Shown: piece by piece, positions 35,140-36,417 of the stretch | Layout of the letters: each line of letters begins with the position of its first letter | Numbering within the stretch: the stretch's first letter is position 1 | Source of the DNA: Fidelibacterota bacterium | GTDB taxonomy: Bacteria > Pseudomonadota > Alphaproteobacteria > Rhodospirillales > Rhodospirillaceae | Assembly: GCA_947476895.1 (NCBI GenBank) | Contig: CANJRX010000022.1 | Location: 1 to 38,271 of the forward strand | Length of the DNA stretch: 38,271 nucleotides | Direction: 5' to 3' | Position numbers and translations under genes: made by a program | The notes under the pieces: generated by a model | Told to the model about the DNA's origin: nothing | The model's database searches: none | Seen by the model: only the letters and a program-made list of their open reading frames with translations

Positions 35140-36228
35140 ATGCGGTCAGGCATCACCAAGGTTTTCGGCGTCGCTCTTGTTGGCGCGATGTTATGCGCGT
35201 GCGGCGAGGAGGCCTCTCAACCTTTATCCGCCGGGATTGGCGCTGCCCCTACTTTGCCGCCGCCCAACTCTACGCCGATTCCGACCATCGACATCGCACC
35301 GGCCAAGCAGTGGCCGCAAGGCCTCACTCCGAAAGCCGGCGCCGGGCTGCAGGTGACTTCCTTCGCCGATAACCTGGATCATCCACGTTGGATCTACGTG
35401 CTGCCGAATGGGGACGTTCTGGTGAGTGAGTCTAATGCACCGAAACGCCCGGAAGAGGAGAAAGGCATTCGCGCCTGGATTATGGGCCTCGTACAAAAAC
35501 GTGCCGGCGCAGGCGTGCCCAGCGCAAACCGCATCACCCTTCTGCGTGACGCCGACGGCAACGGCGCCGTGGATGAGCGCGCGGTGTTTTTACAAAATCT
35601 GAATTCACCTTTTGGCATTTCGCTCGTCGGCAACACTTTATATGTCGCCAATACCGATGCGGTGGTGAGCTTTCCCTATGAGGAAGGCCAGACGCAGATC
35701 ACCGCCGCCGGCACAAAGGTTGCGGATCTTCCCGCAGGGCCTCGCAATCACCACTGGACCAAAAACATCATCGCGAGCGCCGACGGCACGAAGCTTTACG
35801 CAACCGTCGGCTCTAATAGCAACGTGGCTGAGAACGGTATCGCGGCTGAGGCCAATCGCGCCTCCATTATGGAAATCGATTTGACCAGCGGCGCATCGCG
35901 CTTGTTCGCTACCGGTCTGCGCAATCCTAACGGCTTGGGCTGGGAACCAACCACAGGCGCGCTGTGGACAGCGGTCAATGAACGCGATGAATTGGGCAGC
36001 GATCTGGTGCCGGACTACATGACCTCGGTGCAGGACGGCGGGTTCTATGGCTGGCCCTATAGCTATTACGGCCTGCACGTCGATGTGCGCGTGAAACCGC
36101 AAGCGCCGGAACTGGTGGCGAAAGCCATCGTGCCTGACTACGCTTTGGGTGCACATACAGCCTCATTAGGCTTGGCATTTTCGCGGGCGAGTGATGCGCT
36201 GCCAAAGGCGCTACAGTCAGGCGCGTGA
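35140..36228 (+). CDS. Sorbosone/glucose-dehydrogenase-like lipoprotein, C-terminally truncated
   Basis: The 362-residue product starts with a lipoprotein-type signal ([16 protein letters not shown]) and then shows the beta-propeller of PQQ-dependent sorbosone/soluble glucose dehydrogenases: [40 protein letters not shown] [38 protein letters not shown], and [13 protein letters not shown]. The family normally runs on after [10 protein letters not shown] to a GEHGSWNR-type strand and about 75 more residues. Here the frame ends at TGA (36226-36228), which is the first triplet of a 192-bp palindrome. The last propeller blade is therefore missing and activity is doubtful. A perfect EcfG-type promoter precedes it. 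Confidence 0.8.
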
Positions 36229-36417
36229 CCTGACCGATTTTCTTTACCAGTCGTGATGTTAGTTTACTGCATGTTTTGGCTCTGTTCGAGTGGTACTGGA
36301 ATCGGGCTATAGGTCACCGGCGCCGGCGGCCTATAGCCCGATTCCAGTACCACTCGATCAGACCGCTATCATGCAGTAAACTAACATTACCACTGGTACA
36401 GAAAATCGGTCAGGTCA
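36226..36417. repeat. 192-bp near-perfect palindrome (MITE-like element)
   Basis: Two 88-bp arms (36226-36313 and 36330-36417) are reverse complements with 9 mismatches and no indels, around a 16-bp centre that itself contains the palindrome CCGGCGCCGG (36317-36326) on the same axis. The ends read TGACCTGACCG...CGGTCAGGTCA. No transposase is encoded and I see no target-site duplication in the flanks. It supplies the stop codon of the truncated dehydrogenase. A non-autonomous mobile element or remnant of paired IS ends is the likeliest identity. Confidence 0.75.

Follow-up and report, generated by a model that had tools for sequence, protein, structure and literature searches.

A 192-bp palindrome at the end of a truncated dehydrogenase gene as an apparent fusion scar of two IS3-family insertion sequences

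The window, i.e. the whole stretch of 38,271 nucleotides that was analyzed, comprises positions 1 to 38,271 of contig CANJRX010000022.1 (assembly GCA_947476895.1, labelled Fidelibacterota bacterium and placed by GTDB in the Rhodospirillaceae). Genomes are denoted here by G and a number, G000 being the genome of the window and G003, G009 and so on its relatives. A truncated dehydrogenase gene runs into a long palindrome, which is followed on the opposite strand by a lipid kinase gene and a sulfatase-domain gene. The features, with the arms assigned by comparison of insertion sequence (IS) right ends, are as follows.

35140..36228, plus strand: truncated glucose/sorbosone-dehydrogenase-type gene, 362 aa (Pfam GSDH PF07995, 2.4e-10)
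36226..36338, minus strand: arm A, assigned to the right end of IS subfamily A, 113 bp, transposase C-terminus GYRPPAPVTYSPIPVPLEQSQNMQ followed by the stop (right-end comparison and reading frame)
36305..36338, no strand: 34-bp quasi-palindrome at the palindrome centre, a native part of the right end (IS positions 80-113) that other G000 right ends also have
36330..36338, no strand: CCTATAGCC, microhomology where lineage A turns into lineage B (right-end comparison)
36330..36417, plus strand: arm B, assigned to the right end of IS subfamily B, inverted, transposase C-terminus YSPIPVPLDQTAIMQ followed by the stop (right-end comparison)
36503..37384, minus strand: YegS-type lipid kinase gene, right flank (Pfam DAGK_cat 7.5e-27; NCBIfam TIGR00147 over cut-off)
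37396..38271, minus strand: right-flank gene with a sulfatase domain, extending past the window end (Pfam PF00884, 8.3e-14)

The palindrome (36226-36417) is an inverted repeat of 192 bp with 96-bp arms, no spacer, 11 mismatches and no indels; nine of the mismatches lie within the outer 88 bp. A previous sequence-only reading had described 88-bp arms with nine mismatches around a coaxial inner CCGGCGCCGG palindrome. The inverted repeat and the mismatch count were reproduced on recount, whereas the division into two nested parts was not, the structure being one continuous palindrome. A repeat search of the window stretched the arms to 103 bp at 86%; beyond the ends, pairing was found at 5/10 and 7/20 positions, i.e. 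the symmetry stops at the palindrome. The computed RNA fold amounts to -152 kcal/mol, compared with -51.7 kcal/mol (sd 4.25) for shuffled sequences (z = -23.6), and none of 200 shuffles folded as well, which places the fold far beyond chance.

The dehydrogenase frame terminates at the TGA with which the palindrome opens, so that its stop codon is supplied by an IS terminus. Five homologs (G003, G014, G015, G020 and G022) can be aligned as far as residue 361-362 (351 in G020) and run about 78-85 residues beyond the palindrome boundary, which bears out the earlier proposals that the frame stops at the palindrome and that the 3' end of the gene has been lost. The lost C-terminus was not found elsewhere in G000, where the best matches were a 41% paralog and then a match with an E-value of 0.3; at 97.7% completeness of the assembly this is no proof of absence.

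When the 192 bp were compared with their own genome, 58 matches were obtained; the sole place spanned in full was the window itself, and the remaining matches were to single arms. A pattern of the 18-base terminus recovered 30 exact right ends in G000, the two arms of the palindrome included, as well as 29 left ends. Most of these lie some 144-149 bp away from the end of a contig, which is what a multi-copy element that interrupts a draft assembly should produce. The IS is assembled in G000 as end fragments only; its right ends encode the C-terminus of a transposase and its left ends the start of OrfA. The termini are TGACCTGACC...GGTCAGGTCA, with TG...CA terminal inverted repeats (right end TGACCTGACCGATTTTCT, left end TGACCTGACGGCTTTTTT). 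Judged from longer pieces in relatives (loci L114 and L121), OrfB scored 162 bits against NF033516, just over the cut-off of 160, and the OrfA piece scored 44 bits, below the cut-off; Pfam matches on these pieces were rve (1.4e-18), rve_3 (2.3e-28) and HTH_Tnp_1 (1.8e-13). By this sequence evidence each arm is a right end, and both belong to a single IS3-type family of elements. The closest named relatives found are copies on Bradyrhizobium plasmids, 75-76% (75.6%) identical over a 197-aa piece of OrfB; the related full elements measure 1240-1245 bp on these plasmids and 1247 bp in Methylorubrum. Single arms occur in 18 of 99 relatives (this genome counted). The genome search that had been suggested yielded both dispersed single arms and a related IS with these ends. 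The locus shares with IS3-family elements the termini and, through the parent IS, OrfA with HTH_Tnp_1 and OrfB with an rve domain, whereas the window copy consists of two right ends and lacks both a left end and the body of the transposase. The database records that carry this IS end (L088-L124) are titled Rhodospirillaceae, Caenispirillum bisanense or Candidatus Marinimicrobia; several match genomes placed here in one genus, and some of the titles look mislabelled.

Regarding the two arms, 23 of the 27 other right ends of G000 that were compared are identical over 113 bp, and arm A departs from this main form at two positions (39 and 75). Arm B, of which 79 bp (36339-36417) are unique to lineage B, differs over the 75 outer positions at 11 places from the main form, at one from a relic in G000 (C12:61153) and at four from locus L054 in G009. 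At the nine outer positions that distinguish the arms, the relic and L054 each share eight states with arm B. Subfamily B is otherwise represented in G000 by that one truncated relic and is common in the congener G009, where seven of the eight places scored were closer to arm B (L054 alone being compared base by base). The arms therefore come from two different elements rather than from one folded-back end, and the palindrome is almost certainly composed of two right ends from two IS subfamilies. It had been argued from the mismatches that the palindrome is no simple fold-back artefact; this holds more strongly than stated, eight of the nine outer differences being states of the second subfamily. 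In both arms the transposase tail with its stop codon is still in frame. The differing states of arm A at positions 39 and 75 are both arm-B states, and the same two occur in G010 (L033); they could reflect arm-to-arm correction, or arm A may merely be an older copy.

The centre of the palindrome corresponds to a feature that the IS itself possesses. The quasi-palindrome GGCTATAGGTCACCGGCGCCGGCGGCCTATAGCC occupies IS positions 80-113 in every intact G000 right end shown, with small changes in contigs C41 and C46; it sits in the C-terminal codons of the transposase, and its hairpin has a computed energy of -23.9 kcal/mol. No such quasi-palindrome was seen in three distinct plasmid relatives. 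After the motif, intact elements of lineage A continue with GAGCG; the palindrome continues with CGATTC, which is the sequence of lineage B. The exact sequence shared at the switch from A to B is CCTATAGCC if the B element had the usual motif, and TATAGCC if it resembled L054. As the 34-bp motif approximates its own reverse complement, inverted copies of the IS also carry a short near-direct repeat at this place, and deletion by slippage, annealing or recombination across that repeat would be the simplest path to the present structure.

Regarding the flanks, the window contig and contig C41 overlap at their ends by exactly 149 bp, and the sulfatase gene continues in C41. The dehydrogenase and the sulfatase lie on different contigs in all four relatives that have both (G003, G014, G015 and G020), and neither kinase nor sulfatase was found in the 4.8-7.4 kb seen downstream of the dehydrogenases of these relatives; all compared genomes are drafts, so that such distances are lower bounds. 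The kinase adjoins the sulfatase in G020, G024 and G007, with no dehydrogenase near them in the stretch seen (which in G007 extends only some 0.5 kb past the kinase). In G003, G014, G015, G009, G016 and G010 the neighbourhood of the sulfatase contains no kinase; the right flank has thus itself been rearranged within the genus. From the separation of the flanks in 4/4 relatives together with the failure to find the lost C-terminus, the event probably joined two separate chromosomal loci. G000 has two YegS-type lipid kinase genes, one in the window (36503-37384) and one at C24:24221-25162. The latter is intact beside PmbA, and a kinase next to PmbA/TldD is conserved in the genus (G003, G009 and G012). 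The window kinase was considered as the orthologue of that kinase; since G000 retains the orthologue intact in C24, the window gene is a second copy, and both this assignment and the argument from PmbA synteny were dropped.

The reading preferred here, to which a probability of about three in four is given, is that the palindrome arose by fusion of two oppositely oriented IS3-family elements at their quasi-palindrome, whereby two loci were joined. A subfamily A element would have been located in the dehydrogenase gene and a subfamily B element beside the lipid kinase gene, in opposite orientation and with their right ends facing outwards. Replication slippage, annealing or recombination across the quasi-palindrome would then have joined the two right ends and dropped everything between them, both IS bodies included, so that a single event might account for the palindrome, the loss of the dehydrogenase 3' end and the union of two formerly separate loci. 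Neither IS bodies nor left ends nor a transposase are present in the palindrome. That the joining took place at the quasi-palindrome is fairly likely; this step is deduced, neither the ancestral arrangement nor the reciprocal product having been seen in the draft genomes. The palindrome is, in short, an IS-IS fusion scar, with ordinary parts and a slightly unusual way of joining. The earlier suggestion of a relic of two IS ends that entailed loss of the gene's 3' end agrees with this, both arms being right ends, from two subfamilies. The IS-mediated rearrangements of Ngan et al. 2024 (PMC11708052, accessible portion) likewise have an IS at the joint of non-neighbouring sequences and no target duplication; they differ in that here two elements have lost all but their ends and are joined at a quasi-palindrome inside the element. 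The accessible open-licence PMC text yielded no account of IS copies united by their right ends. An ordinary IS could thus yield a long chromosomal palindrome without fold-back copying, by fusion of inverted copies at a self-complementary stretch.

An unlikely alternative origin is a miniature element, bounded by a right end on either side, that arose elsewhere and moved here as a unit with transposase supplied in trans, the 3' end of the gene being removed later by an adjacent deletion. Both of its termini are intact IS ends (TGACCTGACC...GGTCAGGTCA), and internal-deletion derivatives of this IS do exist: in G009 (C14, loci L039/L106, positions 26-307) a 282-bp derivative consists of a left end and a right end and is MITE-like in make-up. 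Such an origin nevertheless requires an extra deletion or joining step, and the unit occurs once. The fused centre is present in one of 73 family genomes, namely this one, and absent from the other 72; a place spanning all 192 bp was found in one of 99 genomes, with at most eight candidates scored per genome. The palindrome shares with MITEs and internal-deletion derivatives a short length, terminal inverted repeats matching those of an active IS and the lack of a transposase, but is composed of two right ends instead of a left and a right one; like the parent IS, it shows no target duplication. Several dispersed copies of the whole unit, which would be expected of a MITE, were not found, G000 holding a single full place (1-192). 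A MITE, which had been offered as one half of an alternative with the relic of two IS ends, was rejected on account of the single-copy fused form and its absence from the other 72 family genomes, only single arms being repeated; the relic half stands.

IS3-family elements typically generate target duplications of 3-5 bp. The palindrome is flanked by GCG and TCC, i.e. by no duplication, and the parent IS shows none either. In G000 the 30 right and 29 left flanks were searched for complementary pairs, of which 49 were observed against 60 in controls at 2 bp, 14 against 15.0 at 3 bp and 6 against 3.9 at 4 bp, whereas a full set of target duplications would give about 40 pairs at 3 bp and about 30 at 4 bp; pairing at offsets gave nothing clear. 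Target duplications were likewise absent from all three distinct named plasmid copies (L193, L194 and L196) and from the 282-bp derivative. The usual 3-5 bp duplication was thus not detected for this IS, although recombined copies could mask one: either the subgroup does not generate it, or its copies have been reshuffled by recombination, a cause considered in the accessible portion of PMC11708052. As the parent IS has no detectable duplication anywhere tested, the lack at the palindrome says little, also against the miniature element; it was dropped as evidence. Nothing indicates that the palindrome works as a gene or represents a new mobile element.

An assembly chimera of two IS-ended contigs is quite improbable, even if most copies of the IS in this draft break contigs and the 149-bp contig overlaps suggest assembly from a short-read graph with k near 149. 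Both arms are unique sequence: arm A departs from the consensus right end by two differences that are private to it among copies in G000, and arm B differs from the C12 relic at a position of its own; moreover, the sequence common to both lineages at the joint is only about 9 bp exact.

Highly improbable is a retained functional hairpin, e.g. a transcript end or 3' stabilizer, as might be suggested by the very stable computed fold and the location between convergent genes. No U-tract follows the large hairpin, the sole terminator-like site is small (36216-36234; one found versus 0.4 expected), and an Rfam search at a relaxed threshold gave eight matches, all below gathering scores and mostly to animal miRNA hairpins. 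The junction is unique and not conserved. The stable RNA hairpin proposed earlier is thus upheld as a computed fold, whereas no evidence of a role was found and no function is indicated.

The copying of one right end onto itself, by fold-back or by template switching within its quasi-palindrome, was also considered. Template switching at quasi-palindromes is described in the accessible portions of PMC7202029 and PMC8604942. This origin, suggested by the coincidence of the palindrome centre with the native hairpin, was rejected as already contradicted, because arm B copies the second subfamily and not arm A (8/9 diagnostic states), and because such copying would have included flanking sequence, yet the symmetry stops sharply at both IS termini.

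Returning to the fusion of two elements, the quasi-palindrome was examined as a possible recurrent break point. Of the 12 other right ends broken between positions 30 and 147, eight break within 80-113 (p = 0.007, uniform null). The count becomes 7/12 (p = 0.031) with the ambiguous L039 counted out, 6/10 (p = 0.039) without two very diverged copies and 5/10 (p = 0.13) with both exclusions. Left out throughout were the palindrome itself, L008 (a spurious match of 13 nt), L028 (break at 210, out of range), L206 and L208 (a 1-nt indel, wrongly called broken by the gapless scan) and the unscanned loci L088-L124; C12 (break at 75) was added. The clustering is weak and post hoc with uneven ascertainment, and gives only a hint of a hotspot. 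It is a rather doubtful possibility that the quasi-palindrome of this IS3 subgroup serves as an inherent site of breakage and fusion, at which the IS repeatedly fuses or truncates its copies and so reshapes the genome in a lineage apparently without SbcCD. If so, palindromes of two right ends and truncated ends would be left behind, and the sites of breakage and fusion of IS copies would be predictable from a simple sequence feature; otherwise the locus is a scar, resolved in good detail, that accounts for the truncation of a gene.

SbcD (TIGR00619) scored over the cut-off in none of 20 genomes (this one, 12 of the genus and seven of the order), with weak matches in four, among them this genome at 20 bits; in 14 control genomes it matched in 13 and exceeded the cut-off in eight. 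Judging from this profile search the lineage may lack SbcCD, and may for that reason tolerate such a palindrome. According to the accessible portion of Darmon et al. 2010 (PMC3315005), the absence of SbcCD and RecA is accompanied by rearrangements at an interrupted palindrome of 246 bp. The present palindrome is of comparable length (192 bp) but is natural, imperfect and without spacer, in a genome with no SbcD over the cut-off.

Two further IS remnants were observed in G000. At about 5314-5360 of contig C41 (L167) a 27-bp left end passes directly into CTGACCTGACCGAT, with which a right end begins, and then into unrelated sequence, which makes it a tiny nested IS remnant. In contig C17 (L081, left end at 144) TGACCTGAC immediately precedes the left end, as if the element had been inserted into or beside another IS terminus.
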